A stretch of 36,541 nt of DNA, from positions 1 through 36,541 of IMG/VR virus record IMGVR_UViG_3300042197_003724; one strand, given 5' to 3'. How positions within the stretch are numbered: the stretch's first letter is position 1; every line of letters begins with the position of its first letter. Origin of the DNA: a virus. This document shows, one piece after another, positions 5,030 to 33,631 of the stretch. The position numbers and the translations under genes were made by a program. The notes under the pieces were generated by a model. The model searched no databases and had not been told where the DNA came from. It saw nothing but the letters and a program-made list of their open reading frames with translations.

Positions 5030-5689
5030 ATGGCAGATTTTACATTAGAACCCAGACAAATTCCTGGGGCAGACTGTGGTGATGTTGAAACACAAGGAAG
5101 ATTATCAACTCGTTATGACTATATTGTAAAGAATATCCAAAATGAAGGATTTTATGATGAAACTTGCGAACCATGGTTGCATGGCAATGCTCAAATTGAC
5201 AATTTGCAAGTTAATTCCCAGATCAATGGTGGAGGTAGCGTTAACATTACTGGAACAGTTACTGCATCGGAAGTAACTGCAGGTGGCGTTACTTTAACTT
5301 CTAGGAAACCGTTTGATATTTTGCATCCTACTAAGAGTGGTTGGCGCCTCAGGCATGTTTGTCTAGAAGGTCCAGAAAGTGGTGTTTATTTTCGTGGAAG
5401 ATTGACTGGAAATAATACTATTGAATTGCCAGATTATTGGGTTGGTCTTGTTGATGCAGAATCAATTACGGTTTCTTTAACTCAAATAGGATTCGAGCAA
5501 AATTTAATTGTTGAAAAAATTGAATGGGGGAAAAAAATTAAAATAAAATCTGGTAATGGATCCTCGATCGACTGTTTCTATCATGTTTATGGTGAAAGAA
5601 AAGATGGAGAAAAATTAATTGTAGAATATGAAGGAAAAACAATTGAGGATTATCCTGGCGATAATGCAATTTACAGTATCAATAAGTAA
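5030..5689 (+). CDS. Virion structural protein with CLEGP/YHVYGERKDGEK domain, copy 2
   Basis: 219 aa, starting 3 bases after the previous stop. It repeats the domain of its neighbour: FDILHPTKSGWRLRHVCLEG, VYFRGRL, ELPDYWVGLVDAESITVSLTQIG and an identical YHVYGERKDGEKLIVEYEG. Its N-terminal 90 residues differ and end in a short fibre-like segment (DNLQVNSQINGGGSVNITGT). The pair therefore shares one attachment or head domain but has different N-terminal parts. Probable virion component near the baseplate; exact role unknown. Confidence 0.7.
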   Translation: MADFTLEPRQIPGADCGDVETQGRLSTRYDYIVKNIQNEGFYDETCEPWLHGNAQIDNLQVNSQINGGGSVNITGTVTASEVTAGGVTLTSRKPFDILHPTKSGWRLRHVCLEGPESGVYFRGRLTGNNTIELPDYWVGLVDAESITVSLTQIGFEQNLIVEKIEWGKKIKIKSGNGSSIDCFYHVYGERKDGEKLIVEYEGKTIEDYPGDNAIYSINK

Positions 5690-7057: not shown

Positions 7058-7663
7058 ATGAAATCTGATTTTTATATAGATAAGGTGTGTAAGGAAGAAA
7101 TTAAAAATCTTCTTCATACTCATCATTATCTAAAAGACGAATCCAAAGATTTCAAATCAGGCTTCAATTATGGACTTTTTAAATCCACATTCGAATGCCC
7201 TCTTAATCTTGGCGGGTGTCTCGGGGCTTGCATTTTTAGTTCTCTCCCAGTTCCAGAAATTGCAGTAGGTGCCTTTGGATTAGAAAGAAATCAACAAAAA
7301 GGAATATACGAATTATCAAGACTCTGCATACATCCAGATATACAAAAAGAAGAATATAATATCACATCTTGGTTCTTAAGTCGTTGCATACGGAGATTTA
7401 AAAAAGATGCAAATGTTTCTGCTATTCTTAGTTACGCTGATTCTACTCGCCACAACGGAATTATCTACCGCGCTTGTAATTTCAAGTATTATGGGTTAAC
7501 GGATCCAAAAAAAGATTTTTATTATGCAGATGGCACCAAACATTCAAGAGGTTCTGTAAAGGGACAACAAGGTGAATGGAGAGATCGTCCCAGAAAACAT
7601 AGATACTTAATGATTTTTGATAAACAATTGGAAAAAAGGTTGGCGTGGAAGGAAGAAAAATGA
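7058..7663 (+). CDS. Mom-like DNA modification protein (GNAT-like fold candidate)
   Basis: 201 aa. Several blocks match the pattern I know from the phage Mu Mom family: THHYLK (21-26), YELSRLCIHP (84-93), and ILSYADSTRHNGIIY (123-137) followed by RACNFKYYGL (138-147). Mom is a GNAT-related enzyme that converts adenine in DNA to a carbamoylmethyl-type derivative and so protects phage DNA from host restriction. The family hallmark SYAD...H.G.IY.A.NF.Y.G is present, with RHNG where many members have GHxG. If correct, this phage may hypermodify its DNA. It is the last gene before a strong terminator. A general acetyltransferase role is the main alternative. Confidence 0.7.
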   Translation: MKSDFYIDKVCKEEIKNLLHTHHYLKDESKDFKSGFNYGLFKSTFECPLNLGGCLGACIFSSLPVPEIAVGAFGLERNQQKGIYELSRLCIHPDIQKEEYNITSWFLSRCIRRFKKDANVSAILSYADSTRHNGIIYRACNFKYYGLTDPKKDFYYADGTKHSRGSVKGQQGEWRDRPRKHRYLMIFDKQLEKRLAWKEEK

Positions 7664-7763: not shown

Positions 7764-10700
7764 ATGCCTTTAAGTCGTTTAGAGAATTTCCTGAAGAACA
7801 CAAAAGGAAATATTCTCTATGTAAGCCCAAATGATATTGATTCAACCGATTCATATGAAAATAGAGGTAACTCTTTAACAAGACCCTTCAAAACGATTCA
7901 AAGAGCTTTACTTGAGTCAGCAAGATTTTCATATCAAGCAGGAATAAATAACGATTTATTCAGTAAAACGACTATTTTACTATATCCAGGTGATCACATT
8001 GTCGATAATCGTCCTGGATGGATTCCCTATGACAATGGATTTGGTGAAATAAGATATTATAATCGTGCGGGAGAAGCAAATTTAACATTAGCGCCATTAA
8101 CCAGCACTTCAAATTTAAATCTTGAAGATCCTTCAAATGATATTTACAAATTGAATAGTGTGCATGGAGGAGTAATTCTTCCAAGAGGAACTTCTCTTGT
8201 TGGACTTGATTTAAGAAAAACAAAAATTAGACCAAAGTACGTTCCCGATCCAGAAAATAATAATGTTGAAAGATCTGCAATTTTTAGAGTTACTGGAACA
8301 TCTTATCTTTGGCAATTTACACTTCTTGATGCAGATCCAAATGAAAACTGCTATAAAAACTACTTAAATGATACATTTATTCCAAATTTTTCACATCATA
8401 AACTGACATGTTTTGAATATGCGGATGGTGTGAATAATGTTGCAATTGACGATGAATTTCTTACTTTGTCAGAAACACGTACTGACCTTGATATGTATTA
8501 TCAAAAGGTTGGAGATTTTTATGATGCGCCTTCAGGAAGACCTGTTGAACCTGATTATCCAACAGGTGGAGTTGATTTTGAACCGAAGATTGATGAATAT
8601 CGAATTGTTGGTCCAATTTCTGGATCTATCGGTGTTTCGAGTATTAGATCTGGTAATGGAACTTTAATTGGAAGAACTCCAACAATTACTGTCACCTTAG
8701 ATACCCCACTTGAAGGACTTGATGTTGACACTGCATTTCAGATTACTAATGTCAACTCTGACTATAATGGTCAATATGTTGTAAGTGGAATTACAAGTTA
8801 TTTTGGTGGAACCAAAGAATTTACCTATGAAGTTCAAAATATTCCAGCTGATCCAAAACCGACACTGACAAACGCAACTGTAGAACTTGCAAGTGATACG
8901 GTAACTTCTGCTTCACCATACATCTTCAATATTTCCTTACGATCTGTGTGGGGAATGTGTGGAATGCACGCAGATGGTAGTAAAGCAACAGGATTTAAGT
9001 CCATGGTTGTTGCACAATTTACTGGTATTGGTCTACAAAAAGACGATAATGCGTTTACAATTTATGATGATGGTGTTTATCTTGATGCTGCAGATGGTCA
9101 GACAAATCTGTTTAAAAATTCAAGAGCAATTTTTAAACCAGAATATCGAAACTTTCACATCAAAGCATCCAATAATGCGTTCATTCAGGTAGTTTCTGTT
9201 TTTGCAATTGGATTTGCTGATCATTTTCTTTCAGAGTCTGGTGGTGATTTATCAATTACTAATTCCAACTCAAACTTTGGCGCAAGATCACTAAGATCTG
9301 TTGGATTTAGAGATGAGGCATTTAATCAAGATGATGTTGGATACATTACTCACATAATTCCATCACAAGAAGTACCAAAAACAATTACAACAACAGAATT
9401 CTCGTCGATAGATGTCAATAAAACAATCAATATTGGTGTTTCTTCACATTTATATCTTTATAACGAAACAAATCCAGATATTGCACCATCTGAAGTTCTC
9501 GATGGATATCGAGTAGGAGCAAAATCGGACGAAAAAATATTTGCAATTATCTCCGATGGTGTAACAAGTTCTGAGTATTTTTCAAGAGTTGTAATGCCTT
9601 CTGGAGAAAAAGGAGATTTAACGCAAGTAACCTCAGAAAAAATATCCAAAGTTTCCAGCGATAACACTGGAATTAATAGTATTACAACAACAAATTCGAC
9701 AATCACATTTACAGCACCCCATAATTTTATTAATGGTGAAAGTGTAAGAGTTTTAAGTGAAAATGGATTTTTGCCAGATGGTCTTGTTGAAAATCGCATA
9801 TATTATGCAATTGTAAATCAAACCTCTGGAGTTGGAAATACATCAATTCAACTTTCAGAAACATTAAATGAAGCTTTAAATGGAAATGCAATCGATATTA
9901 ATAACAATGGTGGAATTTTAAAAGTTGTTAGTAGAGTTTCAGATAAACAACCAGGATCTGCTGGTCATCCAATTCAATTTGATATAGCAAATCGAAATTG
10001 GTATATTAACGTATCTTCTGCATCGACCGAAAACTATCTTTATTCAAGAATTGTTGGATTGGGCACCACAACTTTGGGTGTTAGATCTCCAAAGACATAC
10101 ATTAAGAGAACTCCAGATAGTCGTAATTCGATTGATAGAATTTATCGAGTTCGATATGTCATACCAAAAGAAGTTTCTGTTGCCAGAGAACCTGTTGATG
10201 GATTTATTTTACAAGAATCATCATCTACTATTGAATCGGGACAACTTGCGATTACAAACGATAGTTTATCAAATCCAGCAGTTAGAAAAAATTTAAGAAT
10301 TATTGCCGGAATTTCATCTTCTGTTGGAGTTGCTACTGTCTATACAGAAGTTCCGCACAATCTTTCTATCGGATCTCAAGTTAAAATTCGAAATGTAAAG
10401 AGCACAGGAAACACTGCTGGTGTTGCACAGTCCGCATACAATCAGATATTTACAATTAGTGGCATTTCAAGTGCAAAAGCATTCTCAATTAGTGTTACAG
10501 GAAATCCAGGAACATTTTTAAATAATGTAGATACCCGAACAACTACAGAACTTCCATATTTTGAGAGGCAAAATTATAATGATGTTTTTTATGTTTATAG
10601 AAGTGAAGAAATTAAAAAACATATTCCAAATCAGCAGGATGGAGTTTATCATCTAATTTGTGTCAATGCTTCAAATGCACCATTGGCTCCTGATTTTTCT

Positions 10701-20252: not shown

Positions 20253-21059
20253 ATGAAAAAATATTATTTTATCTCTGGATTGCCAAGAAGTGGAAGTACC
20301 TTGTTAAGTGCCATTTTGAGGCAAAATAAAAATTTTTATGCCGATATTTCTTCACCACTGTCTGAAATTACTAGATCTTCAATTATACATTTATCAAATA
20401 CAATAAGTAGATTAAATATTGATGAAAGTAAAAGGAAAAATGCAATTATTGGATTATTTGAAGGGTATTATTCGGATGTTTCTGCAAAAATAATTTTTGA
20501 TACATCAAGAACTTGGACTTACCATACTGATATTTTATTATCTTTATTTCCGTATACAAAAATATTTTGTTGTGTTAGAAATATATCTTCAATATTAAAT
20601 TCCTTTGAAAAAATTATCAAAAAAAATCCTTTATATATTTCCAGTGTTTTTAATGGAAAAGATTATCCAACTTGTTTTTCCAGATGTGAACATTTGATGA
20701 ATGAAAATGATGGAATAGTTTCGTTCGCATATTGTGGTTTATTGGAGGCTTATTCTAGCAATTCACAAATTATTAATTTTATTGAATATGAAGATTTATG
20801 CAAATATCCAGAAAAAATAATTGAAAAAATTTATAATTTAATAAATGAACCTTATCAACAACATGACTTCAATTCTTTAAATTATTCTAATGAATTATTT
20901 GATTTAAATTGCAACACAAAAGGATTGCATACGGTAGGAAGAAAAGTTACTTATAAAAAAGAATCTATTATAATACCTCAAAAAATTTATGATTACTATA
21001 ATAATATGAAACTAGAATTTTGGAAAGATAAAAAAGATTTTATTGGATCGTATAAATAA
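20253..21059 (+). CDS. Sulfotransferase (PAPS-dependent)
   Basis: 268 aa. The N-terminal GLPRSGSTLL (9-18) is the PAPS 5'-phosphosulfate loop of the sulfotransferase family, and VRNISSILNSF (108-118, with Arg109 and Ser113) fits the 3'-phosphate-binding motif. It transfers sulfate from PAPS to a hydroxyl or amine, usually on a glycan, protein or small molecule; no signal peptide or membrane segment is seen, so it should act in the cytoplasm. It opens the AT-rich modification island right after the adhesin gene and has no Shine-Dalgarno sequence. Substrate unknown. Confidence 0.85.
   Translation: MKKYYFISGLPRSGSTLLSAILRQNKNFYADISSPLSEITRSSIIHLSNTISRLNIDESKRKNAIIGLFEGYYSDVSAKIIFDTSRTWTYHTDILLSLFPYTKIFCCVRNISSILNSFEKIIKKNPLYISSVFNGKDYPTCFSRCEHLMNENDGIVSFAYCGLLEAYSSNSQIINFIEYEDLCKYPEKIIEKIYNLINEPYQQHDFNSLNYSNELFDLNCNTKGLHTVGRKVTYKKESIIIPQKIYDYYNNMKLEFWKDKKDFIGSYK
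21051..21058 (+). promoter_or_regulatory. Exact T4 late promoter motif TATAAATA
   Basis: TATAAATA overlaps the stop of the sulfotransferase gene, 18 bases before the ATG at 21077. It equals the T4 late consensus, but chance is possible in AT-rich DNA. Confidence 0.45.
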
Positions 21060-21076
21060 TTTTTTAATTTTCAACT

Positions 21077-21700
21077 ATGACTACATTATCTCTTTATTCA
21101 GTTCCGTTTTGGCAAACAACCTATCCCGACTTTGAAGAAGAAAAAGAAAAATTTTTAAAAGTAGTACAAGAATATAAACAAGAACATCCAGAAGCACAAA
21201 ATATATCGAATGTGGGTGGTTATCAAACCGAAAAATTTATACATTCAAAAGAGGAATTAAATTCACTTTTTAGTTATATTCATTCTTTTGCAAATTACGC
21301 TGCCGATGAATTAAATTTTGTTGCCAGAGATACTTATATAACATCTTCATGGGCAAATATTGGAGATTCTCGTCAATCAATGCACACAGAGCACACTCAT
21401 GGGGATGTTTTTTCTGGAGTATTTTTTTTAAATACTCCAGAAAAGAGTGGAAATCTTTGTATTAGAAATATAGCCACAAATTCAATGTGGATGGGATCAA
21501 AACTTTGTCAAGAAAAAAATCAATTTACTTCAACTTTAGTAAAAATTAGTCCGGTTGAAGGTGAAATTTTACTTTGGCCTTCATATTTACCACATGCAGT
21601 TGAAACGAATGACCATGATGACGTTAGAATTTCCATATCTTTTGATATAATTATGATACCAAAACCAAAATCAAATCAAGATAGTATTCCAGAAAGTTAA
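21077..21700 (+). CDS. 2OG-Fe(II) oxygenase, CHP02466/2OG-FeII_Oxy_5-like
   Basis: 207 aa. The core is SSWANIGDSRQSMHTEHTHG then DVFSGVFFLNTP (about 90-121), with likely ligands His108 and Asp110 (H-G-D), the distal His173 in LLWPSYLPHAV, and Arg184 (VRISISFDI) to bind 2-oxoglutarate. The family uses Fe(II), O2 and 2-oxoglutarate to hydroxylate a substrate that is rarely known in phages. No ribosome site is visible. It begins a run of four oxygenase genes (21077-23301). Confidence 0.85.
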   Translation: MTTLSLYSVPFWQTTYPDFEEEKEKFLKVVQEYKQEHPEAQNISNVGGYQTEKFIHSKEELNSLFSYIHSFANYAADELNFVARDTYITSSWANIGDSRQSMHTEHTHGDVFSGVFFLNTPEKSGNLCIRNIATNSMWMGSKLCQEKNQFTSTLVKISPVEGEILLWPSYLPHAVETNDHDDVRISISFDIIMIPKPKSNQDSIPES

Positions 21701-21718
21701 AAACTTATTTTTATATTA

Positions 21719-22285
21719 ATGATTAAAAAATATTCAAATGTTTTAAGTGAAGATACTTTAGAAGTAATAGAGTTGTACATTCAACATGCTTTAAAAAATG
21801 ATGTTTGGGCATCAAATCTAGAGTGGGATAAACGTCTAGTAAATTCTTCTTCAATAGTTATAACTCATCCAGTTTCAAAAAAAGAAATATTTTTTGAAGA
21901 AGTAAAAAATCAAATTCAAAAAATATTGAATGTTAATTTTGATAGTCTAAATTTGGAGTTTAGGTTAGCAATTTATATTTGGGGAAAAATGTCTTATATA
22001 ACTTGGCATGATGATTATGGTTGGGATTACAGTGGAACAATTTACTTGAATAAAGAATGGAATTTAAATTATGGAGGAATTTTTTTATGGAAAGATAATA
22101 AAAATTCGGAAATAAGAGGAGTAGAACCAATTTTTAACTCCATGGTTGTTAATAGCAAACATCAAATGGATGGTAATAATTTACATGCAGTAACAATGCT
22201 ATCATCAGAATCTCCAGAAAATCGATTTACTTTGCAGTGGAGATGTGTAGAAAAGAAAAAAATTAAAAAAATTGAATACCTTTAA
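21719..22285 (+). CDS. 2OG-Fe(II) oxygenase, prolyl-4-hydroxylase-like
   Basis: 188 aa. WHDDYGWDYSGTIYLNKEW contains the HxD pair (His97, Asp99); NYGGIFLW follows; His156 (LHAVTML) and Arg169 (NRFTLQW) complete the expected triad and 2-oxoglutarate-binding arginine. This order is typical of P4H-type double-stranded beta-helix oxygenases. All catalytic residues are present, so it should be active. No Shine-Dalgarno sequence. Substrate unknown. Confidence 0.85.
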   Translation: MIKKYSNVLSEDTLEVIELYIQHALKNDVWASNLEWDKRLVNSSSIVITHPVSKKEIFFEEVKNQIQKILNVNFDSLNLEFRLAIYIWGKMSYITWHDDYGWDYSGTIYLNKEWNLNYGGIFLWKDNKNSEIRGVEPIFNSMVVNSKHQMDGNNLHAVTMLSSESPENRFTLQWRCVEKKKIKKIEYL

Positions 22286-22288
22286 TTT

Positions 22289-22777
22289 ATGGAAAATATT
22301 TTTAAATCTCAAAAAAAACATTTTTATAAAAAAAATTTTTTGATTGACACGCCAAATTGGCAGTACTTTATAGACAATCTTGACTTTTCTATAAAAAATA
22401 ATTTGTCTTTACAATTTTTTGATAACTGTGGGATTGTTTTACATGATCTCAAAAATGTGAAAAATGTGAAAGATATAAAAAAAAATATTATAAAATCTAA
22501 TGATACAAAATACAATTGCTCGTCACACGCTTATATAAGTTTTTCATCCAAAAGTAAAACTTTTGGAAAACACAAGGATACTTCCGATGTTTGGTTTTGG
22601 CAATGTATTGGAGAAACTATGTGGAAAATTTATGATGACTCAACACATGAATACATTCTCAAATCAGGAGATTTGATTTACATACCACATGGAATGTATC
22701 ACCACACAACACCGATCTCACCTAGAGTTGGAATATCATTTGGTTTAGATTATCCACCACCAATTGAATATTCATGA
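22289..22777 (+). CDS. Cupin/JmjC-type oxygenase
   Basis: 162 aa. FGKHKDTSDVWFWQCIGE holds His95 and Asp97; GDLIYIPHGMYHHTTPISPR places His138/139 and Arg146 as in cupin_4/JmjC (ROXA-like) hydroxylases. The ILKSGDLIYIP strand is diagnostic of the cupin fold. Members hydroxylate residues in proteins or RNA-associated proteins; the phage substrate is unknown. The protein is short, so it may be a minimal form. Its end overlaps the start of the next gene (ATGA). Confidence 0.75.
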   Translation: MENIFKSQKKHFYKKNFLIDTPNWQYFIDNLDFSIKNNLSLQFFDNCGIVLHDLKNVKNVKDIKKNIIKSNDTKYNCSSHAYISFSSKSKTFGKHKDTSDVWFWQCIGETMWKIYDDSTHEYILKSGDLIYIPHGMYHHTTPISPRVGISFGLDYPPPIEYS

Positions 22778-23301
22778 AAGAATTAATGTTTTCGGTTCCA
22801 ATTTATAAGTATAAAGTTAATAATTGGAAATACAAAAAAAAAGAATTATTAATTTTGTTTAATTCTTTTGATACAAAGTTGGTTGAAAATGTGATGACTT
22901 CACCAATCAATATAAAAACAAATATATTTGAGGAAGAGATAAAAGCATTTGAAATTGATTGTGGATTATCTTCTCGATTACACGAATTTTGGTTTCAAAA
23001 TTACGAAAAAAATATGCATCACAATGTCCACAACCATGGTGCTCTTGGATTTTCTGGAATTTGTTTCATAGAATATGATAAAAATCATCATGCACCAACA
23101 ACTTTTATATCACCATTTATAAATAGTATTAGTGGAGAATATGCAAAATACATCATAAATGTAGAAGAAGGTGATATAGTATTTTTTCCGTCAAATATTT
23201 TACATTATGTTTTACCAAATTTATCAACAGTTCCAAGATTAATATCTTCATTCAATTTAGAAATAATTGAAAATAAAAAAAAATTTTGCGATTATTTCTA
23301 A
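22774..23301 (+). CDS. 2OG-Fe(II) oxygenase, CHP02466-like, divergent metal site
   Basis: 175 aa. MHHNVHNHGALGFSGICFIE (81-100) matches the W/N...HxHxxxxSG pattern of the CHP02466 group, and GDIVFFPSNILHYVLPNL with His144 and PRLISSFNLEI with Arg155 match its C-terminal half. Where the gene at 21077 has H-G-D, here the site is HNHG without Asp, so the third ligand is not obvious. It overlaps the upstream stop by 4 bases and is probably co-translated. Confidence 0.75.
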   Translation: MKELMFSVPIYKYKVNNWKYKKKELLILFNSFDTKLVENVMTSPINIKTNIFEEEIKAFEIDCGLSSRLHEFWFQNYEKNMHHNVHNHGALGFSGICFIEYDKNHHAPTTFISPFINSISGEYAKYIINVEEGDIVFFPSNILHYVLPNLSTVPRLISSFNLEIIENKKKFCDYF

Positions 23302-23342
23302 AAAAATATATAATAATATAAACTCAATTACATTAATTAATT

Positions 23343-24275
23343 ATGAAAATTATCAATATTGATGGTGGTATTGGAAGAGTTATCACCGCTTTACCTGCAC
23401 TTCTCAAATATCACAAAAACCATCCAGATGAGGAATGGCATGTGTCTATTATGGGATGGGATTACGTTCCTCTTGGCATTCCAGAACTTCAAGAAAGAAC
23501 TTTTAATCCAGACACAAAAGGAACCTGGGAAAATATTTTTATGAAAGCGGATGAAGTTATCTCCCCAGAACCTTATCGTCTTCCAAATTTTTATAAAGGT
23601 AGAATATCTCTTGCAGAGGCATTTGACGAAATTATCAATGACACGAATGACCACTCAGATTTGAATTATGAGACTTTAAATCTTTCTCATGCAGAAATTC
23701 GTAAAGGACAAGAAATAATTTGCAGAGCATACGAAACACAGAAAAAAGAACAAACCATCGTTATTAATCCGTATGGATCTACTGCACAAGTGTGTCCTTT
23801 GGGGGTCTATGATGACAGTTTGAGGTCATTGCCAGAGAATATGTTTGTAAAGCTTTGCGAACTCTTTGCAGAGGATTATAACGTCATCTATATGGGATAT
23901 TCTCATCTTCTCTCAGAGGAGAATAAGTTTATTTTTGTCCCCCAACCAGATCTTCATATTCGTGAGTGGATGGGTGTAATTAGTCAAGTAGACTATTTGA
24001 TTGGTTGTGATAGTGTAGGGCAACATATTGCAAGAGCAACGGGAACTAAAGGTTGTGTAATTATGGGTGGAACTGACGCAGTAAATATGTCTTATCCAGA
24101 CTACTTTAGAATTGTTCAAAGAAAAAAACCGGAATATTCTCCAATGAGAGTTTCGGGATTTCAATCTAATCTTGCGGAAAGATTGAATAAAGAATGTATT
24201 GAATACACTGATGATGAAATTTTGGATATCTACGAGCAAGTTAAATGTGATTTGAAAAATATTTTAAACACATGA
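23343..24275 (+). CDS. Glycosyltransferase family 9-like (heptosyltransferase-type)
   Basis: 310 aa. The N-terminal MKIINIDGGIGRVITALPAL is the GT-B/GT9 start (G-x-G-D-x-hhhxPhL pattern), and the C-terminal half has VINPYGST, YNVIYMGYSH and DYLIGCDSVGQHIARATGTK, as in heptosyltransferase-like enzymes. These transfer a sugar from a nucleotide donor to a lipopolysaccharide or other glycan. No membrane segment. Its base use is less AT-rich than the oxygenases around it, so it may have a different history. The stop overlaps the next gene's ATG (24272). Confidence 0.8.
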   Translation: MKIINIDGGIGRVITALPALLKYHKNHPDEEWHVSIMGWDYVPLGIPELQERTFNPDTKGTWENIFMKADEVISPEPYRLPNFYKGRISLAEAFDEIINDTNDHSDLNYETLNLSHAEIRKGQEIICRAYETQKKEQTIVINPYGSTAQVCPLGVYDDSLRSLPENMFVKLCELFAEDYNVIYMGYSHLLSEENKFIFVPQPDLHIREWMGVISQVDYLIGCDSVGQHIARATGTKGCVIMGGTDAVNMSYPDYFRIVQRKKPEYSPMRVSGFQSNLAERLNKECIEYTDDEILDIYEQVKCDLKNILNT

Positions 24276-24919
24276 ATGTCTTAACAAAAGATGAAAATAA
24301 TAAAGATATTTTGTTAGATCCCACTCAAAAACATCAAATTATGATGGAGTGGGAAAAACCTTATATGGAAGCATGTATTCAAAAACTTCAACCATTTGGT
24401 GATGTTCTTGAAATTGGTTTTGGTCTTGGATATTCTGCAACAGAAATACAGAAGTTTCCGATTAATTCATATACAGTCATAGAATGTGATGAAGAAACTT
24501 ACAAAAGAGCATTAAAATGGAAAAAAAATTACAATCATTCAATTAATATTATTTTTGGTAGATGGGAAGAAGTTTATGAAACTCTACCAAAATTTGATTG
24601 TATGTTTTTTGATGATTTTGATATAAAAACTTTAGAACTTTGCAAACTTGATCCGACTATTCCTTGCAGAAATATTGATTTTATTTTAAAATTAAAAAAT
24701 AATTTAAAAAATTATACAAAATTTTCTTTTTATTGTGCTACTAATAAAGAACAAATGCAAAAATATAAAAATCAATGGAAAAAATTATTAAAAGAATATC
24801 AAAAAAACATTAATTTTGAAGAATACCTCATAGATGTTCCAGAAAATTGTAGATATATAGTTGATCAGACTTTATACTGCCCTCTACTTCAGTTTAAAAA
24901 AATATTTGATTATCAATAG
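24272..24919 (+). CDS. Class I SAM methyltransferase, GAMT/RMT2-like
   Basis: 215 aa. HQIMMEWEKPYMEACIQKL then VLEIGFGLGYSA (45-56) match guanidinoacetate/arginine-type methyltransferases, whose hallmarks are W-E-x-P-Y-M and LE(I/V)GFG. VIECDEETYKRALKW is the ribose-binding acidic loop, and FDCMFFDDF follows. The class methylates a guanidino nitrogen, but the phage substrate is not shown. It overlaps the GT9 gene by 4 bases. Confidence 0.75.
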   Translation: MNVLTKDENNKDILLDPTQKHQIMMEWEKPYMEACIQKLQPFGDVLEIGFGLGYSATEIQKFPINSYTVIECDEETYKRALKWKKNYNHSINIIFGRWEEVYETLPKFDCMFFDDFDIKTLELCKLDPTIPCRNIDFILKLKNNLKNYTKFSFYCATNKEQMQKYKNQWKKLLKEYQKNINFEEYLIDVPENCRYIVDQTLYCPLLQFKKIFDYQ

Positions 24920-24920
24920 A

Positions 24921-25649
24921 ATGCCAAAACCAATTCAAGTTTTTTTAAGGCATTGTTATTATTCAAAATTGCAAGAACTTCCTGATCGTATGAGACCTGG
25001 TTGGTTTCGTAAAGATAGAGCTTTTCAAAATTTTAAAACAACTTTAGATCCAAAACTTGTTGACTATCATATTGTTTATGATGAATTTTATGGAGATATT
25101 AAAAGCACTTTTCTTAAAGAAGAAACTAATGTGAAAATTATAAATTGCGGATCGGAATGTGATAGTTTTATTGAAACTATGGATTATGCAATTTCTTTAA
25201 ATTACCCCGAAGATACAATTATTTACTTTTTAGAAGATGATTATCTACATAAATCAAATTGGGGAAAAATATTGCTAGAAGGATTTACATTAAATCCTGC
25301 TTATGTAACTTTGTATGATTTTGATTTCTTTTTAAATAAAAACATTTTTACAAAACTTTTTACAACTTCAAGTACTCATTGGAGAGCAGTTCCTGCAACT
25401 ACAAATACATTTTCATGTAAATTATCGACTCTATTAGATGATTATGAAATTCACAAAGAATTTTCTATAAATGGTGTGAAGGAAAAAGAGAATGGGCTTA
25501 ATTTTTCAAAGGATTATCATAAATTTTGGGAATTAAGTCAAAATTATAATAAACATTTGATATCACCAATTCCTGGATATTCAACTCATTGTGATGCAAA
25601 TCATCTCTCACCATTTATAAATTGGAAAAAAATTATTGATGCTGACTAA
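24921..25649 (+). CDS. GT-A-like glycosyltransferase candidate
   Basis: 242 aa from ATG 24921, the first base after the upstream stop plus one; the frame is open further upstream but those starts lie inside the methyltransferase gene. IYFLEDDYLHKSNWG (101-115) resembles the DxD metal-nucleotide site of GT-A enzymes (EDDY), followed by AYVTLYDFDFFLN. Residues RMRPGWFRKDRAFQNF near the start are typical of a family of phage and bacterial transferases I cannot name precisely. Expected activity: transfer of a sugar from an NDP donor. Confidence 0.6.
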   Translation: MPKPIQVFLRHCYYSKLQELPDRMRPGWFRKDRAFQNFKTTLDPKLVDYHIVYDEFYGDIKSTFLKEETNVKIINCGSECDSFIETMDYAISLNYPEDTIIYFLEDDYLHKSNWGKILLEGFTLNPAYVTLYDFDFFLNKNIFTKLFTTSSTHWRAVPATTNTFSCKLSTLLDDYEIHKEFSINGVKEKENGLNFSKDYHKFWELSQNYNKHLISPIPGYSTHCDANHLSPFINWKKIIDAD

Positions 25650-25669
25650 GATAAAAATATATTAATTTT

Positions 25670-26230
25670 ATGGAAAAATACATTATTATAGATAATTTTC
25701 TTGAGAAAAATTTATTTTTAAAACTTAAAAATATTTTTTTTCCAAAATCCATAAATCAAGAAAAACTTCCTTGGAGTTATCAAAATGGTATTGTAAGAAA
25801 TCCAGAACTTGGTGCTACCAATTATAAAGAATATGATTGGATGTATGTACATTCTTTTATGAATTCACAAATAAAAGAAGAAAGTGATTTTATTTATTTA
25901 ATAAAACCAATATTTGAAAAATTAAATAGTGCTAAAATTATAGATGCTAGAGCAAATTTATTAATACCCACAAAAAAACAAATTTATCATGAAAATCATG
26001 TAGATAGAAAAATACCTCATAATGTTGCACTTTTTTATGTAACTACGAACAACGGATTTACTCTTTTAAACGATAATAAAAAAATTGAATGTTTGGAAAA
26101 TAGAATTTTAATATTTGATGGGTCAATTTATCATCGATCAGTAAGTTCCACTGACAGAGTTAGATGCGTTATTAATATTAATTATTTTCCTATTAATAAG
26201 AAAAACAATCTTTTATTTGATTACAAATAA
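25670..26230 (+). CDS. 2OG-Fe(II) oxygenase
   Basis: 186 aa. YHENHVDRKIPHNVALFYV carries His110-Val-Asp112; NRILIFDGSIYHRSVSS carries His155; DRVRCVININYF carries the 2-oxoglutarate arginine (Arg163 or Arg165). All expected residues are present. The block IPHNVALFYVTTNNGFTLL is shared in pattern with the genes at 26421 and 29010, so these three are paralogues. The start context TTAATTTTATGGA recurs before other genes of the island; there is no Shine-Dalgarno sequence. Confidence 0.85.
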   Translation: MEKYIIIDNFLEKNLFLKLKNIFFPKSINQEKLPWSYQNGIVRNPELGATNYKEYDWMYVHSFMNSQIKEESDFIYLIKPIFEKLNSAKIIDARANLLIPTKKQIYHENHVDRKIPHNVALFYVTTNNGFTLLNDNKKIECLENRILIFDGSIYHRSVSSTDRVRCVININYFPINKKNNLLFDYK

Positions 26231-26286
26231 TGAATGCGGATTTGTATAACGAGTATTATTATAATAGTCCAAATTTAATTGAAATA

Positions 26287-26312
26287 AATCCAAAAGTTGC
26301 AACTTTTGGATT
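26287..26312. repeat. Perfect 26-bp palindrome
   Basis: AATCCAAAAGTTG followed by its exact reverse complement CAACTTTTGGATT. It has no loop and no T run, so it is not an ordinary terminator. It lies inside the broken oxygenase, just before the frame change. Confidence 0.95.
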
Positions 26313-26383
26313 GTTCATGGATTCTTCACGGAACATATTCTCAAAATGATGGAATACGTCAAACATTTAATTTGGGTTTTGAG

Positions 26384-26390
26384 CTAAATA
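26384..26390 (+). promoter_or_regulatory. Late promoter-like element CTAAATA
   Basis: CTAAATA, 31 bases before the ATG at 26421, within the tail of the pseudogene. Confidence 0.5.
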
Positions 26391-26420
26391 AAAATGTTAT
26401 TTAAAATATGATTAATTTTT

Positions 26421-27065
26421 ATGGATTTTTTGCCAATAATAATTGATGACATCATTGATTATGAACATCAAAATAAAATAGAAGATGCAATTTTTGATTG
26501 TTCTTGGGAATTTATGTTAGATAATGTATGTGGATCAAAATTTACAAATCTTGATCGTAGAAAATTTATTTCACCGAGAGATTATAAAATAACACCAACA
26601 ATAACTTCAGATGTAGTTAAAAATCAACATCTTTTAGAATTGATAATGCCATTAGCCGAAAAATCTTGCAAAAAAATAAATTTTAAAATAGATGCAGTTG
26701 CTAGATGTTTATCTGCTATTCATTTTTTAAATAGTGAATCTAATCAAATTGATAAAATTCATGTGAATAGAAAAGATCCTCATTTAGTTATGATATATTA
26801 TGTTATAGATTCTGATGGAGAAACAATTTTGTTCGACAAAACTTCCAAAGATATTCCAGTTGAAACCGAATATCCAGAAGATCATTATGAGATGAATATA
26901 TTTCAAAAAATAGAAGCAAAAAAAGGTAGAGTATTATTTTTTGATGGTAAAGTTTATCATGCATCTTCAACATCGAGTAAAAATTATAGATGTATAATAA
27001 CTTGGGATATATTTGGAAAATTTTTAGATAAAGATATTTCTTATTCCGAATTAAGACCAAATTGA
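26421..27065 (+). CDS. 2OG-Fe(II) oxygenase-like, Asp ligand replaced by Asn
   Basis: 214 aa. KIHVNRKDPHLVMIYYV aligns with HVDRKIPHNVALFYV at 25670 and IHLDMNKSHYVIIFYP at 29010, but the Asp of HxD is Asn116 here (codon AAT). His180 (VYHASSTSS) and Arg190 (YRCIITWDI) are kept. With Asn as ligand the iron site would be altered; some members of the superfamily work with changed ligands (for example halogenases), others lose activity. The N-terminus (DFLPIIIDDIIDYEHQNKIE) is typical of the group. A late-type motif lies 31 bases upstream; no Shine-Dalgarno sequence. Confidence 0.75.
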   Translation: MDFLPIIIDDIIDYEHQNKIEDAIFDCSWEFMLDNVCGSKFTNLDRRKFISPRDYKITPTITSDVVKNQHLLELIMPLAEKSCKKINFKIDAVARCLSAIHFLNSESNQIDKIHVNRKDPHLVMIYYVIDSDGETILFDKTSKDIPVETEYPEDHYEMNIFQKIEAKKGRVLFFDGKVYHASSTSSKNYRCIITWDIFGKFLDKDISYSELRPN

Positions 27066-27905: not shown

Positions 27906-28148
27906 ATGAACCCCTATACAATTTGGTTCGTTCTCTTTGCATTTTTAGGATATTATATCGTCACTGATGCTTCAGTCGCACGATTTTTTGTATTAGTCAC
28001 ACAATTTGTTCAGGTTCATTATCAAAAGTATAAATGGATTATAATACATCATCCCAAAACACCCTGGGCACGGTATAGTATGCATCGTCGTTCTATGAAA
28101 CTTGCAGAGGAACTAATGAAAGAATTGGAGAAGAAGAATGATCTTTGA
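27906..28148 (+). CDS. Small membrane protein, 80 aa
   Basis: Residues 5-35 (TIWFVLFAFLGYYIVTDASV, then ARFFVLVTQFV) form one long or two short membrane segments, followed by a basic region (HHPKTPWARYSMHRRSMK) and a helix (LAEELMKELEKK). It overlaps the phosphoesterase start by 11 bases, so the two are probably co-expressed. Function unknown. Confidence 0.65.
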   Translation: MNPYTIWFVLFAFLGYYIVTDASVARFFVLVTQFVQVHYQKYKWIIIHHPKTPWARYSMHRRSMKLAEELMKELEKKNDL

Positions 28149-28839
28149 TGCAGTATTTGTGAGTGATTTGCATTTAGGAACTCCCAGATGCAATACCAAA
28201 AAACTTAATAAGTTTCTCAAAGAAATCAAAACCAAGAAACTGGTGTTGGTTGGAGATATTATTGATGTGTATTGTATGGAGAAATATAATACTCACTGGA
28301 AAAAAGAACATACTGAATGCGTTCATCAAATTCTAAATCTTGCAAAGAAAGGTGTAGAAATCGTTTATATTCCTGGAAATCACGAAGGAATGTTAAGGAG
28401 ATACTGTCCTTTTGAACACAAGAACTTTAAGATGGTTGAAGAGTATGTGTATAAAACAAAGAACGGTGATAAGTATCTTTGCACACACGGAGATCAACAC
28501 TCTGAGTTCTCTTCTGGTTCTTGGAAACAACTGGTGTTTAACAAAGGATATGAACTGATTACTCCAATGAGTTTGTGGATGGAAAAGATTTTTCGTTTTT
28601 CATTGGTTTATGCACTCAAGAATACAATTCGTGGAAAAAAATATATCAATCAATATGAAACTGACTTAGCAAACTATTGTAGACAGAAAGGGGATTACCG
28701 GGGAATTATCTGCGGTCACATTCATCATAACAATATGAGAAAGTTTGATAAGATTGAGTATATGTGCTGCGGTGATTTCGTGGATACCTGTTCAGCAATC
28801 GTGGAAAAGAATGGTTTCTTTCAAACAATTAAGTATTAA
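28138..28839 (+). CDS. Calcineurin-like metallophosphoesterase (LpxH-like)
   Basis: 233 aa with the full motif set: DLHLG (Asp10, His12), GDIID (39-43), GNHEG (80-84), THGDQH (116-121) and GHIHH (about 193-197), the di-metal site of calcineurin-like enzymes. The overall pattern resembles UDP-2,3-diacylglucosamine hydrolase (LpxH), which cleaves a pyrophosphate in lipid A synthesis, but other small phosphoesters are possible. A diverged copy of its last 38 codons is found at 31052-31165. Confidence 0.85.
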   Translation: MIFDAVFVSDLHLGTPRCNTKKLNKFLKEIKTKKLVLVGDIIDVYCMEKYNTHWKKEHTECVHQILNLAKKGVEIVYIPGNHEGMLRRYCPFEHKNFKMVEEYVYKTKNGDKYLCTHGDQHSEFSSGSWKQLVFNKGYELITPMSLWMEKIFRFSLVYALKNTIRGKKYINQYETDLANYCRQKGDYRGIICGHIHHNNMRKFDKIEYMCCGDFVDTCSAIVEKNGFFQTIKY

Positions 28840-28878
28840 ATAAATATCTAAAAGTAAGAATATTCTTTCATATTGCTG

Positions 28879-28989
28879 ATGAATACCTATTCCAGAGCAC
28901 TGCGACATATTGATATAACAGATGTTAAAAAGAAACATCAGCAGAAGATTAGTGAGCAAAAAATGCAAAAAAAATTCAAAACGATTTAA
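28879..28989 (+). CDS. Short basic peptide, 36 aa, at the cassette edge
   Basis: ATG 28879 to TAA 28987-28989: MNTYSRALRHIDITDVKKKH then QQKISEQKMQKKFKTI. Highly basic and helical. It looks like the beginning of a longer protein cut short at the edge of the AT-rich cassette; that is inference. It has no ribosome site that I can see. Confidence 0.35.
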   Translation: MNTYSRALRHIDITDVKKKHQQKISEQKMQKKFKTI

Positions 28990-29009
28990 TAAAAAAATAA
29001 TTTACTACA

Positions 29010-29633
29010 ATGAAAAAATTTTTAATATTTGATAATGTCATATCAGAAAATTATTTAAGGGGATTGGTTGATAATATTTTTAACTATAATTGGAAATTTT
29101 CATCTAATATAACTTTTGGTGATGAAGAATCTGTTGTAAACTTAGTTGATTTTGAGTATGGATTTTACTCTGAATTGACAATAGATCAAAAATACTTTAT
29201 ACTACCTTTAATTTATAAAATTTGTGACCTTAGTAATATAGAAGTAAAAAGTAAAGCTCAAATATTAAGAATGGTGCCAAGATTGCAGACAATGATGTCT
29301 CATAATAATGAAATAAATGATATTCATCTTGATATGAATAAAAGTCACTATGTAATTATTTTTTATCCTCATGATATTGATGGTGAAACAATACTATATG
29401 ATCAAACAACTTCCGATTGTAGTTTTTTAGATTTTTCAAAAATGAGTATTGATGAAAGAAAAAATATGAAAAATAATTTTACAATTTTAAAAAAAATTAA
29501 ACCAAAAAAGAATAGAGCTTTAGTTTTTAATGGAAATAGATATCATGCTTCATCTTCACCAAGTTTAGGACCTAGATGCATAATTAATTTTAATATTGAA
29601 TATGATGATTTGGAAAATCCAAAATTAATTTAA
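29010..29633 (+). CDS. 2OG-Fe(II) oxygenase
   Basis: 207 aa. IHLDMNKSHYVIIFYPHDIDG holds His106 and Asp108; NRYHASSSPS holds His179; PRCIINFNIEY holds Arg189. All active-site residues are present. Strongly similar in pattern to the gene at 26421 (DGETILYDQTTSD versus DGETILFDKTSKD), so the two cassettes share an oxygenase lineage. No Shine-Dalgarno sequence. Substrate unknown. Confidence 0.85.
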   Translation: MKKFLIFDNVISENYLRGLVDNIFNYNWKFSSNITFGDEESVVNLVDFEYGFYSELTIDQKYFILPLIYKICDLSNIEVKSKAQILRMVPRLQTMMSHNNEINDIHLDMNKSHYVIIFYPHDIDGETILYDQTTSDCSFLDFSKMSIDERKNMKNNFTILKKIKPKKNRALVFNGNRYHASSSPSLGPRCIINFNIEYDDLENPKLI

Positions 29634-29689
29634 AGTAATACTTGTATAAAATGCAAAAAATAAATTTTATTGAACATTAAAAAAACAAA

Positions 29690-30241
29690 ATGAAAAATCA
29701 AATGAAAAATTATATTTTTATTGGAAAATTAAATGTAAATGAAATAATTAATTTTGTTACAAATCTCGACCAAAGTGAATGGGAAGAAGAAACAATACGA
29801 CAAAAAGTTTTTTCGGTTCATATGCATACTAAAACCGTCCCAATTTTATGGGATTATGAGTCTCTTTCTTATTTAAAAGTTGGGCAAGAAAGAAAATATT
29901 TTTCTTGGTTTAAGGGTACTGATTTTTTTAAAAACTTAAATAAAAAATTATTTGAATTTTATGGAGATGGTACAATTTTGAGAATTCTTTTGACAAAATT
30001 AGAATCTAAAAAATCAATAATGCCCCACAAAGATGGGGGAGAATCTTTATTAGTTCCCAATAGAATTCATATACCAATTATTACAAATGATCAAGTATTT
30101 TTCTCTGTCGATGATGAAGTAAAAAATATGAAAATTGGTGAAATGTGGGAATTTAACAATAGTAAAATCCATTTTGTAAATAATTTTAGTAATGAAGACC
30201 GAGTTCACTTGATTGCAGATTATTATAAAAACACTAAATAA
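29690..30241 (+). CDS. Aspartyl/asparaginyl beta-hydroxylase-like oxygenase
   Basis: 183 aa. MPHKDGGESL (His113, Asp115), NRIHIPIITND (His127 for the 2-oxoglutarate side), KIHFVNNFS (His161) and DRVHLIADYY (Arg171) give the pattern of the Asp/Asn hydroxylase family (PF05118-type), distinct from the other oxygenases here. In animals this family hydroxylates EGF domains; bacterial relatives act on small molecules or proteins. A second methionine is at residue 5. No ribosome site. Confidence 0.8.
   Translation: MKNQMKNYIFIGKLNVNEIINFVTNLDQSEWEEETIRQKVFSVHMHTKTVPILWDYESLSYLKVGQERKYFSWFKGTDFFKNLNKKLFEFYGDGTILRILLTKLESKKSIMPHKDGGESLLVPNRIHIPIITNDQVFFSVDDEVKNMKIGEMWEFNNSKIHFVNNFSNEDRVHLIADYYKNTK
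30234..30240 (+). promoter_or_regulatory. Late promoter-like element CTAAATA
   Basis: CTAAATA overlapping the stop of the upstream gene and 35 bases before the ATG at 30275. Confidence 0.45.
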
Positions 30242-30274
30242 AACGCATTATAAAAAAATTTAGTTTTGATTTTA

Positions 30275-31012
30275 ATGTCTTTAAATTATCCCCAAACATT
30301 CAATTCTTTTGAGTATCCATATCTTCCTATGAACTCATATTACAGAGTTCCTCCAGAAAATATGGAAAAAGAAATTGATTACAAAAAATGGGTAGGGGGA
30401 AGATGGGATGAGCAAGGAAACCTGCAAAAAAATTTTTTAATTTCTCAGGGATTAAAACCAGAACATAAATTTTTAGATTTAGGATGTGGTTGTTTGAGAG
30501 CTGGGATAAAATTAATTGATTTTTTAGATAAGTATAATTATTATGGGCAAGATGTAAATCCATATTTAGTCAAAATGGGTTTAGAACAAGAAGTTCCTAA
30601 GTATAATTTGCAAGAAAAAATTAATAAAAAAAATTTTTCTATTAGTGCAGATTTTACATTATCCTTTGAGGAAGATGTAAAATTTGATATGGCAATATCC
30701 CAATCAGTCTTCACTCATCTTCCAATAAATCATTTATATTTTTGTTTGTTAAAATTAAAAAATTATTTCCTTAAAAATTCAAAATTTTTTGTGAGTTTTT
30801 GGTTGATACCAGAAGAAAGTAATTTGTGTGATAATTTTGTTTGGTCGGATGGACTGGTCACAAGTCATATATCTGATACTTATCATTATAAAAAATCTCA
30901 AATAGAATCGATAATTTTAAATTCTCCAATTAACCAATACTGGGACTGTAGTTATATTGGAAATTGGAATCACCCAGTAAATCAAAAAATGTTTTGTTTT
31001 ATTAGAAAATAG
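30275..31012 (+). CDS. Class I SAM-dependent methyltransferase
   Basis: 245 aa from ATG 30275; a TTG start at 30266 would add 3 residues but ATG is more likely. FLDLGCGCLRAGIKLIDFL (66-84) is motif I and YYGQDVNPYLVKMG motif II; FDMAISQSVFTHLP is motif post-II and LKNYFLKNSKFFVSFW fits motif III. Residues KKWVGGRWDEQG before motif I recall glycan/lipid methyltransferases near polysaccharide genes. Substrate unknown. Confidence 0.8.
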   Translation: MSLNYPQTFNSFEYPYLPMNSYYRVPPENMEKEIDYKKWVGGRWDEQGNLQKNFLISQGLKPEHKFLDLGCGCLRAGIKLIDFLDKYNYYGQDVNPYLVKMGLEQEVPKYNLQEKINKKNFSISADFTLSFEEDVKFDMAISQSVFTHLPINHLYFCLLKLKNYFLKNSKFFVSFWLIPEESNLCDNFVWSDGLVTSHISDTYHYKKSQIESIILNSPINQYWDCSYIGNWNHPVNQKMFCFIRK

Positions 31013-31051
31013 TTTTTGGCAATTAATAAATTTTTTTAATCATCTTAAAGA

Positions 31052-31165
31052 CACGCAAACATTCGTAAGTTTGATAAGATTGAATACATGTGTTGCGGAG
31101 ATTTTGTAGATACCTGTTCTGCAATTGTAGAGAAGAATGGTGCATTTCAACTGATGCGTTATTGA
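31052..31165 (+). pseudogene. Diverged 3' fragment of the phosphoesterase gene
   Basis: One frame reads HANIRKFDKIEYMCCGDF VDTCSAIVEKNGAFQLMRY and stops at TGA 31163-31165. It matches the last 38 codons of the gene at 28138 (HNNMRKFDKIEYMCCGDF...), with most differences in third codon positions. No upstream part of the gene is present. It marks the right edge of the AT-rich cassette, just before the HNH gene. Confidence 0.8.
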
Positions 31166-31195
31166 ATAGATAGTTTGGACCTTAAAGAATAAGGT

Positions 31196-31678
31196 ATGAA
31201 AGAATTAGCAATACAACCGAATACGACAGTTTTAGTGTTGAATTCAAGTTATGAACCACTCAATATCACCAGTTGGAAAAGAGCTGTTGTTTTGTTACTG
31301 AAAGAAAAAGCACAAGTTCTCTCCAATCGTGTCATTCGTCTGTTGAGTTATGTAAAAGTTCCTCTTTCTAAAATCATCTCCTACAAACCATCAAGAGCAA
31401 TGATTTATAAGAGGGACAATCATACCTGCCAATATTGTGGAGCAACTACAAAATTGACGATCGACCACGTTATTCCCAGATGCCGTGGTGGTGAAGACAC
31501 CTGGGAAAATCTTGTAGTAGCCTGCAGTTCTTGCAATACAAAGAAAGGTAATACTTTGTTGGAACAAACTAATATGAAGTTAATGAGAAATCCCAGAGCA
31601 CCGTATAATAAAATGCAATTTACTTTAAGTAATTGTAAAATTGATGAGTGGAAAGAATATACTTTGTACTTATGTTAA
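31196..31678 (+). CDS. HNH endonuclease, cyanobacterial/phage type
   Basis: 160 aa. CQYCG (Cys78, Cys81), IDHVIPRCRGGEDTWENL (Asp90, His91, Asn105) and CSSCN (Cys110, Cys113, Asn114) form the HNH/McrA-like site with a zinc cluster. The N-terminal VLVLNSSYEPLNITSWKRAV is characteristic of a widespread cyanobacterial HNH family. It would nick or cut DNA in a metal-dependent way. Lying right beside a duplicated gene fragment and a cassette, it may act as a homing-type nuclease, but a packaging or repair role is possible. Confidence 0.85.
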   Translation: MKELAIQPNTTVLVLNSSYEPLNITSWKRAVVLLLKEKAQVLSNRVIRLLSYVKVPLSKIISYKPSRAMIYKRDNHTCQYCGATTKLTIDHVIPRCRGGEDTWENLVVACSSCNTKKGNTLLEQTNMKLMRNPRAPYNKMQFTLSNCKIDEWKEYTLYLC

Positions 31679-31684
31679 GAAACC

Positions 31685-31713
31685 CTGACATTTTATCTAA
31701 ATAGTATTACAAT
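31685..31713 (+). promoter_or_regulatory. Sigma70-type promoter with embedded late element
   Basis: CTGACA (31685-31690), 17-base spacer, TACAAT (31708-31713). CTAAATA (31697-31703) lies within the spacer. The same stretch could be used early by host sigma and late by the phage factor. Start near 31720, before the gene at 31781. Confidence 0.6.
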
Positions 31714-31780
31714 GTTGGAGTGAATTCTATGAACGAAAACCAAACTTTGTTATGATGTTCTTTGTGCATTGGGGGTTATT

Positions 31781-31966
31781 ATGCACAACTTAATTTCTTA
31801 TAATCAACTGGCTGGATGGAAACAAAATCTGGAGCATTTAAACCAAACTATAGAGAGGGCAAACGAACAAAATGATATGATTAATGATTATTATAATTGT
31901 TTGATTGAATGTGATGACAATCAACAAGTTTGTAAAAGGATTTGCCGATCAATTCTAGCTTCATAG
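31781..31966 (+). CDS. Small Cys-containing protein, 61 aa
   Basis: The likely start is ATG 31781 (MHNLISYNQLAGWKQNLEHL), with GGGGGT just upstream; the frame is open a little further but without a good start. Helical, with three cysteines (CLIEC, QQVCKRIC). A tiny frame MNENQTLL lies before it at 31729. Function unknown. Confidence 0.55.
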   Translation: MHNLISYNQLAGWKQNLEHLNQTIERANEQNDMINDYYNCLIECDDNQQVCKRICRSILAS

Positions 31967-31988
31967 TCCAGTTTAAAAACCGTCCACT

Positions 31989-32018
31989 CCCCCTTGACTT
32001 CTGGTTGAGGGGGTTTTA
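31989..32018 (+). terminator. Hairpin terminator overlapping a promoter
   Basis: CCCCCTTGAC (31989-31998), loop TTCTG, GTTGAGGGGG (32004-32013), then TTTTA: a 10-bp stem (two G-U pairs) with a short U run. It ends the gene at 31781. Confidence 0.7.
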
Positions 32019-32022
32019 TAGT
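31994..32022 (+). promoter_or_regulatory. Sigma70-type promoter inside the hairpin
   Basis: TTGACT (31994-31999), 17-base spacer, TATAGT (32017-32022). The -35 and most of the spacer are the hairpin DNA itself. Start near 32029, about 20 bases before ATG 32050. It is the apparent start of the early gene block. Confidence 0.7.
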
Positions 32023-32049
32023 ATGTGTATTGAAACCCCTTCATTCTCA

Positions 32050-32520
32050 ATGACTTACAACGCAGAAGTTCAATTCAAGTTTGATGCCACATTCACTCCA
32101 ACTTATGGAACATCATCGTGGACTGGTGATGACTTCATTCCCGAAGAGCACTACCTGATTACTGCTCCTGCTGCTGATTTGAACGCAAAGCAGTATTTCA
32201 AACTGTTTGAGAAGTTTATGCTGTGTGTTGGTATGGACCCCAAAAGTATTCGCAGTGGAGCAATGTCACTGGTCTTCAACGATTATGTGAGTGAGGAAGA
32301 GCAACGTAAGGTTTGCAAGGAATATGAACTGACGATGGATGAAGACCTTGATGAGAAGTTCAAGGAATGGCAGGTTCGTGAAGAAGAGATTGCTCGTCTT
32401 CAAAAGATTACTGAAGAAACGATTGCTAAACACTATCCACAATCAGAACCAAAAATCAAAGGTGATTGGGAATACACTGAAGAAGAAATTCGTTGGACTA
32501 ATTCAGAGGAAGGAGTATGA
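32050..32520 (+). CDS. Early protein of unknown function, 156 aa
   Basis: The start is taken as ATG 32050 (MTYNAEVQFKFDATFTPTYG) because the promoter and its -10 lie over the earlier ATGs at 32023 and upstream. An N-terminal alpha/beta domain is followed by an acidic helical C-terminus (KEWQVREEEIARLQKITEET). No motif recognised. It overlaps the next gene by ATGA. Confidence 0.65.
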   Translation: MTYNAEVQFKFDATFTPTYGTSSWTGDDFIPEEHYLITAPAADLNAKQYFKLFEKFMLCVGMDPKSIRSGAMSLVFNDYVSEEEQRKVCKEYELTMDEDLDEKFKEWQVREEEIARLQKITEETIAKHYPQSEPKIKGDWEYTEEEIRWTNSEEGV

Positions 32521-33304: not shown

Positions 33305-33453
33305 AACTTCTAATCAAATACTTACTTCAAGTGCCTCTACTTTTCTTTTTTGTTACTGGGGTAAATTCAATTATTGGTGATGACTATTTGATTTCTTTTC
33401 TGGTTGCATTTGGTGCCTTACTTCTTTATACTACTGGTGATTACCTTGAATAA
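33301..33453 (+). CDS. Small membrane protein, 50 aa
   Basis: MKLLIKYLLQVPLLFFFVTG and ISFLVAFGALLLYTTG give two hydrophobic membrane-length segments separated by a short loop (NSIIGDDY). ATGA overlap with the upstream gene. A small inner-membrane protein of the early block; function unknown. Confidence 0.6.
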   Translation: MKLLIKYLLQVPLLFFFVTGVNSIIGDDYLISFLVAFGALLLYTTGDYLE

Positions 33454-33469
33454 ACTCTACAATCGTCCT

Positions 33470-33631
33470 ATGAACTTCTTTGAGAAAATCCAAGTTGGCT
33501 GGTGGTGGATAGGAGAAATCTTTGATGAATGGTGTTATACTATGACACACCCAGAAGATAGTGGTGGAGATTTCTTCTGTCATCTTCAAACTGATTATGT
33601 TGCTTATGAAGAGGATGTTTATTATGAATAA
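33470..33631 (+). CDS. Small protein, 53 aa
   Basis: Start taken as ATG 33470 (MNFFEKIQVGWWWIGEIFDE); earlier starts fall inside the previous gene. The N-terminus is aromatic and hydrophobic, the C-terminus acidic (TDYVAYEEDVYYE). Function unknown. Confidence 0.5.
   Translation: MNFFEKIQVGWWWIGEIFDEWCYTMTHPEDSGGDFFCHLQTDYVAYEEDVYYE

Follow-up and report, generated by a model that had tools for sequence, protein, structure and literature searches.

How a viral genome could come to carry one complete phosphoesterase gene and, 2.2 kb downstream of it, the isolated 3' end of a second one is the question raised by a locus in the IMG/VR virus record IMGVR_UViG_3300042197_003724. The source record comprises 36,541 bases and was analyzed over its whole length, hereafter the window. 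The phage is T4-like, with a cyanobacterial host and relatives of the Kyanoviridae type. The locus is a hotspot of gene turnover, with a tail-fibre and cargo block on one side and a block of early-type genes on the other. All genes and sequence elements of the locus described here lie on the plus strand, and L-numbers denote the relative contigs used in the comparison. The complete gene, at 28138-28839, encodes a calcineurin-like phosphoesterase (PE) of 233 amino acids (PF00149, E=2.5e-13), relatives of which are encoded in 70 contigs. Its motifs DLHLG, GDIID, GNHEG, HGD and GHIH are all present, and it is an L003-type allele (93% amino acid identity). In one relative, L067 (8001-8701), two apparent frameshifts, one behind residue 86 and one behind residue 216, break the PE frame, which may reflect either a pseudogene or a sequencing error.

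Sequence comparison assigned positions 31052-31165 to the last 37 codons and the stop codon of a second PE allele, of the L010/L008 type; we refer to this fragment as the 3' echo. Its translation, HANIRKFDKIEYMCCGDFVDTCSAIVEKNGAFQLMRY followed by a stop, matches the end of the intact PE, HNNMRKFDKIEYMCCGDFVDTCSAIVEKNGFFQTIKY followed by a stop, at 31 of 37 residues and with 74.6% nucleotide identity. The local alignment score was 103, compared with a maximum of 29 among 500 mononucleotide shuffles, and a search of the window's own record recovered the second copy at E = 2.6e-18. The 29 nucleotide differences were distributed 5/5/19 over the three codon positions, an excess of third-position changes (19/29, binomial p = 4e-4 against 1/3). 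The reading frame was kept and no excess of amino-acid changes was seen in the echo, which therefore has not drifted for long as a pseudogene. It begins at PE codon 197, immediately past GHIH, and contains none of the metal-binding motifs. Because all of these motifs lie upstream of it, the echo could not make a working phosphoesterase and is best regarded as passive, non-functional debris.

The ancestry of the two copies was examined in a tree of PE tails. The tail of the intact PE was 93% identical to that of L003, 90% to L071 and 89% to L005, and it formed a clade with L003, L004, L005, L006 and L071 (support 1.00) from which the echo was excluded. The echo was nearest to L010 (84%), followed by L009, L008 and L011 (82-83%), and was only 75% identical to the window's own PE. 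The window thus holds two distinct PE alleles, and the echo is not a local copy of the intact gene, since the latter belongs to another clade (L003, L005, L071). The first-pass annotation had described the echo as a diverged PE 3' end with mostly third-position changes, originating in a related functional allele rather than in a fresh local duplication, and our results agree with it on each of these points.

We further examined what follows the echo. An HNH endonuclease gene (phrog_16726, 160 amino acids; PF01844, E=3.5e-16), with its HNH motif and both zinc CxxC pairs intact, occupies 31196-31678, and its ATG lies 30 bases after the echo's stop codon, as annotated earlier. L010 and L087 each carry an intact PE with the HNH gene approximately 30 bases behind it and no cassette in between; an allele of this form had been predicted from the window. 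Both contigs were colinear with window positions 31052-31668 (echo, spacer and HNH gene, approximately 615 bp) at 80% and 75% identity, respectively, without a break. This unbroken alignment indicates that the echo and the HNH gene arrived together, as a single stretch of DNA from a PE-HNH phage.

The left border told of a different gene. Positions 28879-28989 encode the truncated 5' end, 36 codons long, of a 393-amino-acid gene, with 81% identity to its L003 counterpart over 36 amino acids; this gene start is absent from the first-pass list. In L003 the gene is whole (8736-9917) and directly follows PE. The nucleotide match to L003 ends at approximately 28972 (seam S1), where the AT-rich cassette begins, and at 31051-31052 (seam S2) the AT-rich spacer of the cassette meets codon 197 of the second PE allele. 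The cassette thus lies between two cut genes: its left side adjoins the 5' end of another gene, and its right side adjoins a PE 3' end. The third border, seam S3, lies at 31664-31713, where a promoter-bearing block starting with TTATGTTAAGAA begins the next unit. Across five relatives (L003, L005, L008 and L084/L085), the left neighbour of this block is of four kinds. The HNH protein of the window ends in KEYTLYLC, and its close relatives mostly end in EYTF or EYSF; the end of the HNH gene is itself a seam.

The nearest relative changed abruptly along the locus. From 27.0 to 27.9 kb it was L078 (74-87%), and the switch to the L003/L005 type occurred at approximately 27.9-28.0 kb, inside a small open reading frame upstream of PE (phrog_3344, 27906-28148). 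From 28.0 to 28.97 kb the nearest relatives were L003, L005 and L071 (86-97%). Almost none was found from 28.97 to 31.05 kb, where L154-L156 matched part of the second cassette gene only (76-78%). HNH-bearing contigs were nearest from 31.05 to 31.67 kb (76-85%), and L003/L005 again from 31.67 to 32.1 kb (85-98%), including the small conserved gene phrog_665 in the right flank (31784-31966; 91-98%). The flanks past both ends of the block (28015-28972 and 31670-32100) were therefore nearest to L003 and L005, which lack the HNH gene. These switches bear out the earlier proposal of recombination with a relative. A simple insertion of the cassette into a PE-HNH allele does not account for the locus: a different gene is cut short at the left border, and the outer flanks are nearest to the HNH-less L003 and L005. 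The PE copies come from different alleles, the cut genes are whole in relatives, and the ends are not of an element type, so that the locus has the features of a recombination scar.

Taken together, the locus is very probably a recombination mosaic formed by illegitimate joining of two related, co-infecting T4-like cyanophages. One parent would have carried PE followed by another gene, as in L003, and the other PE directly followed by the HNH gene, as in L010 and L087. During co-infection the parental DNAs would have been joined with homology lacking at one side or more, where non-homologous joining or strand invasion would have made the connection. The join would have been homologous on one side and non-homologous on the other, as in the double-strand-break repair of T4, in which one-sided illegitimate repair is documented (PMC2988022). 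The product would be the L003-type PE, 36 codons of its next gene and an AT-rich three-gene cargo, placed before the PE tail and HNH gene of the other phage. Two polarities can be considered. The HNH gene and PE tail may have been resident, with an L003-type left piece and its cargo coming in through a crossover in 27906-28148, for which L146 (below) is the model. Alternatively, an L003/L005-like genome may have been resident and the block of cassette, PE tail and HNH gene incoming, a polarity that the L003/L005-like sequence on both sides favors. The data fit either order.

Some observations weigh against this explanation. None of the other contigs searched contained the same seams (three patterns), and the event is known from one assembled record. 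The right flank past the HNH gene is again L003/L005-like, so that a further switch would be needed if the HNH gene were resident. In addition, the parental states are deduced from relatives at 75-98% identity, which are not the actual parents.

The layout of the window was encountered a second time, in contig L146 (3595-5474). In L143, L139, L147 and L145, a gene of approximately 135 amino acids directly precedes the HNH gene. L146 carries an intact 135-amino-acid gene (3595-4005) whose C-terminus differs, a GIY-YIG/NUMOD3 endonuclease gene (4101-4676) and a small gene (4722-4889), followed by 14 codons of an L143-like C-terminus (4889-4933) and an HNH gene of the same family (5001-5474). From the echo to beyond the HNH gene, L146 was 92-97% identical to L143 over most of the length, and its 135-amino-acid gene was 82-88% identical to relatives at the nucleotide level. 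The echo and HNH gene are clearly the resident side in L146, and the incoming piece comprises the upstream gene, as a complete allele, together with cargo. L146 is thus an independent instance of the window layout with clear polarity. When HNH genes were scanned automatically for cut genes upstream of them, the outcome was noisy, with mostly alternative starts and with many hits for the PE control as well, and it was not used as evidence of an effect specific to HNH. A census of 3' echoes yielded mostly tandem paralogues, including the two cases inspected, L124 and L091.

Three open reading frames make up the AT-rich cassette between PE and the echo, in line with the first-pass annotation; its G+C content is 24%, compared with 34-41% in the flanking genes. 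The first gene (29010-29633) encodes a 2OG-Fe(II) oxygenase-like protein, a distant paralogue (31%) of the product of window 26421-27065, and otherwise had weak relatives only. The second (29690-30241) belongs to the aspartyl/asparaginyl beta-hydroxylase family (PF05118, E=2.1e-14); its relatives are 47% identical in L154-L156, where they sit among structural genes without an HNH gene, and 34% identical in one gammaproteobacterial metagenome-assembled genome. In L154, the relative adjoins a sulfotransferase-like relative of window 20253-21059. The third (30266-31012, with an in-frame ATG at 30275) is SAM-dependent methyltransferase-like, with weak PF08242/PF13847 matches below the cut-off, and had no relatives in the viral contig or phage collections searched. 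Third-position G+C of the cassette genes is 0.12-0.20, and in base composition and kinds of gene the cassette is like the cargo block that the phage itself carries at 20.2-27.1 kb. The cassette is thus cargo of the same kind as this block, probably with another cyanophage as the source. A transposon- or integron-like element was considered and rejected: the repeats were short and AT-rich with none marking both ends, and no recombinase or integrase was present among the genes of the block.

The AT-rich cargo block itself (20253-27065), in which most genes have 22-31% G+C, adjoins the tail-fibre genes and contains, besides a sulfotransferase and several 2OG-Fe(II) oxygenases, a JmjC/cupin-like protein and a weak match to methyltransferases. 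PHROG 274, to which both 29010-29633 and 26421-27065 were assigned, carries the label DNA endonuclease V, as does the annotation of Syn19 denV (L161, 295-840). The Syn19 denV protein matched the 2OG-Fe(II) oxygenase family (PF13640, E=3.2e-7, above the cut-off), and the endonuclease label of PHROG 274 looks wrong.

The first-pass annotation had further proposed that the HNH nuclease aided the arrival of the cassette. Members of this HNH family turned up in 80 viral contigs and also in isolates, among them S-CRM01, S-TIM54 and S-SCSM2R, with more than ten kinds of upstream neighbour. PE stood beside the HNH gene only in L010, L087 and, as an echo, the window; L003, L005 and L008 have PE without HNH, and L078, L083 and L084 have HNH without PE. 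Presence or absence of the HNH gene in the arrangement PE-(HNH)-phrog_665 would be suggested by L008 and L005, which lack it, against L084 and the window, which have it, but the neighbours differ too. None of the HNH loci examined carried the cassette. Mobilization of the cassette by the HNH gene was rejected, since the family occurs beside many genes and never with the cassette. The HNH gene moves independently of the cassette, a behavior named beforehand as speaking against the proposal, and PE and HNH are gained and lost separately. The earlier interpretation therefore stands in part: the related-allele origin, the recombination and the uninterrupted allele were supported, and the role of the nuclease was not. 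Most likely, the HNH gene is a neighbor that stayed in place and not the agent, and a nuclease role in the exchange is possible as a minor hypothesis only.

Such a role could have the HNH protein act as a free-standing homing endonuclease, with an L003/L005-like genome cut close to the PE 3' end and repair copying the HNH gene, PE tail and cargo, homologously on the right and illegitimately on the left. The HNH-less L003/L005-like flanks on both sides of the block are what this would produce, the nuclease motif is intact, and the HNH gene seems to be optional both next to PE and in front of the promoter-bearing block. Free-standing endonucleases of T4 (PMC2988022) and the cyanophage endonuclease F-CphI (PMC6083498) act in this manner. 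Nevertheless, we consider it unlikely. A domain search detected only the HNH domain in the protein and no DNA-binding module typical of homing endonucleases, its upstream neighbors are highly varied, and its cleavage site is not known. Gene tails and within-gene seams also occur upstream of PE and hence are not specific to HNH, and in L146 the incoming side bears the GIY-YIG nuclease and the HNH gene is on the resident side. We also doubt, slightly more strongly, a broader version in which the HNH family marks a recurrent one-sided exchange. There, the upstream gene would be replaced by a relative's complete allele plus cargo, with the join in the last 14-37 resident codons, because HNH or a partner (GIY-YIG in L146) breaks DNA nearby. 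If this were true, 3' echoes before HNH genes would be footprints of a nuclease-directed cargo-loading site.

An assembly chimera of two phage strains in the metagenome would be compatible with an IMG/VR record whose three seam patterns were not found in the other contigs searched. It is nonetheless very unlikely, as exact matches shared by echo and PE reach at most 17 bases, under usual assembly k-mers, no seam-spanning sequence recurs in the window or loci, both flanks are nearest to the same lineage, and L146, from another sample, has the same layout. Still less plausible is that the echo was kept as a promoter, a transcript-stabilizing fold or a translational lead-in for HNH. The conserved frame and the lack of excess amino-acid changes would fit such a function; however, a short echo of recent origin would appear intact regardless, nearly all relatives have HNH after other genes without a PE tail, and no strong promoter or terminator motif was found in the echo. 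Local tandem duplication of PE with decay of the second copy, suggested by the same gene, orientation and neighborhood, is the least credible and was ruled out by the tree of tails, by the closer match of the echo to L010, L009, L008 and L011, and by its continuation into the same spacer and HNH gene as in L010.

Other features of the region were recorded. A hairpin overlapping a sigma-70-like promoter (CCCCCTTGACTTCTGGTTGAGGGGGTTTTATAGTAT) at 31989-32022, PeSL-like, precedes 32053-32520; its position is kept and its stem bases are changed in approximately ten relatives, and in several it lies directly 3' of HNH. Window 33452-33500 contains 49 bases identical to L005 4387-4435 and 96% identical to L091, in poorly conserved surroundings. 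Elsewhere, a Mom-like DNA modification protein is encoded between tail genes (7058-7663; PF25680, E=1.6e-21), and 4256-5026 and 5030-5689 are neighboring paralogues (55% identity over 167 amino acids). In L001 (phage S-SRM01; 4843-6505), psbA is annotated in two parts that flank a putative site-specific endonuclease gene, and PE lies a few kb downstream.

The illegitimate joining that we favor resembles several known systems. In the one-sided repair and mosaic exchange of T4-like phages (PMC2988022, in which Parker et al. 1999 is cited for illegitimate one-sided repair), the combination of a homologous side with a non-homologous join likewise leaves truncated genes and partial duplicates at seams; the window differs in being a natural metagenomic cyanophage. 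Free-standing homing endonucleases and nuclease-bounded exchange islands (PMC10448857; F-CphI, PMC6083498) also have a nuclease gene at the boundary of exchanged DNA, beside a variable gene. In contrast, the neighbors of the window's HNH family vary widely, a DNA-binding repeat was not detected, and the cassette does not accompany the nuclease gene. In PeSL-mediated shuffling, as Arbiol 2010 and Comeau 2014 are cited in PMC4503421, a hairpin with an early promoter borders shuffled modules, similar to 31989-32022, whereas seams S1 and S2 lie within genes and not at the hairpin-promoter element. The S-PM2 ORFanage and cyanophage hyperplastic regions (PMC4503421) share the gain and loss of small, poorly conserved genes between conserved blocks; the S-PM2 case is a deletion, whereas the seam of the window shows two parental alleles.

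The process is already established as an ordinary route of phage gene shuffling, and the window is a new example of it. The locus offers a readable snapshot of cargo-gene loading in cyanophages, in which both parental alleles are recognizable and both cut genes are whole in relatives. In L146 the layout recurs independently, and there the cargo is a homing endonuclease. Orphan 3' tails could serve as a searchable footprint of illegitimate exchange in phage genomes.

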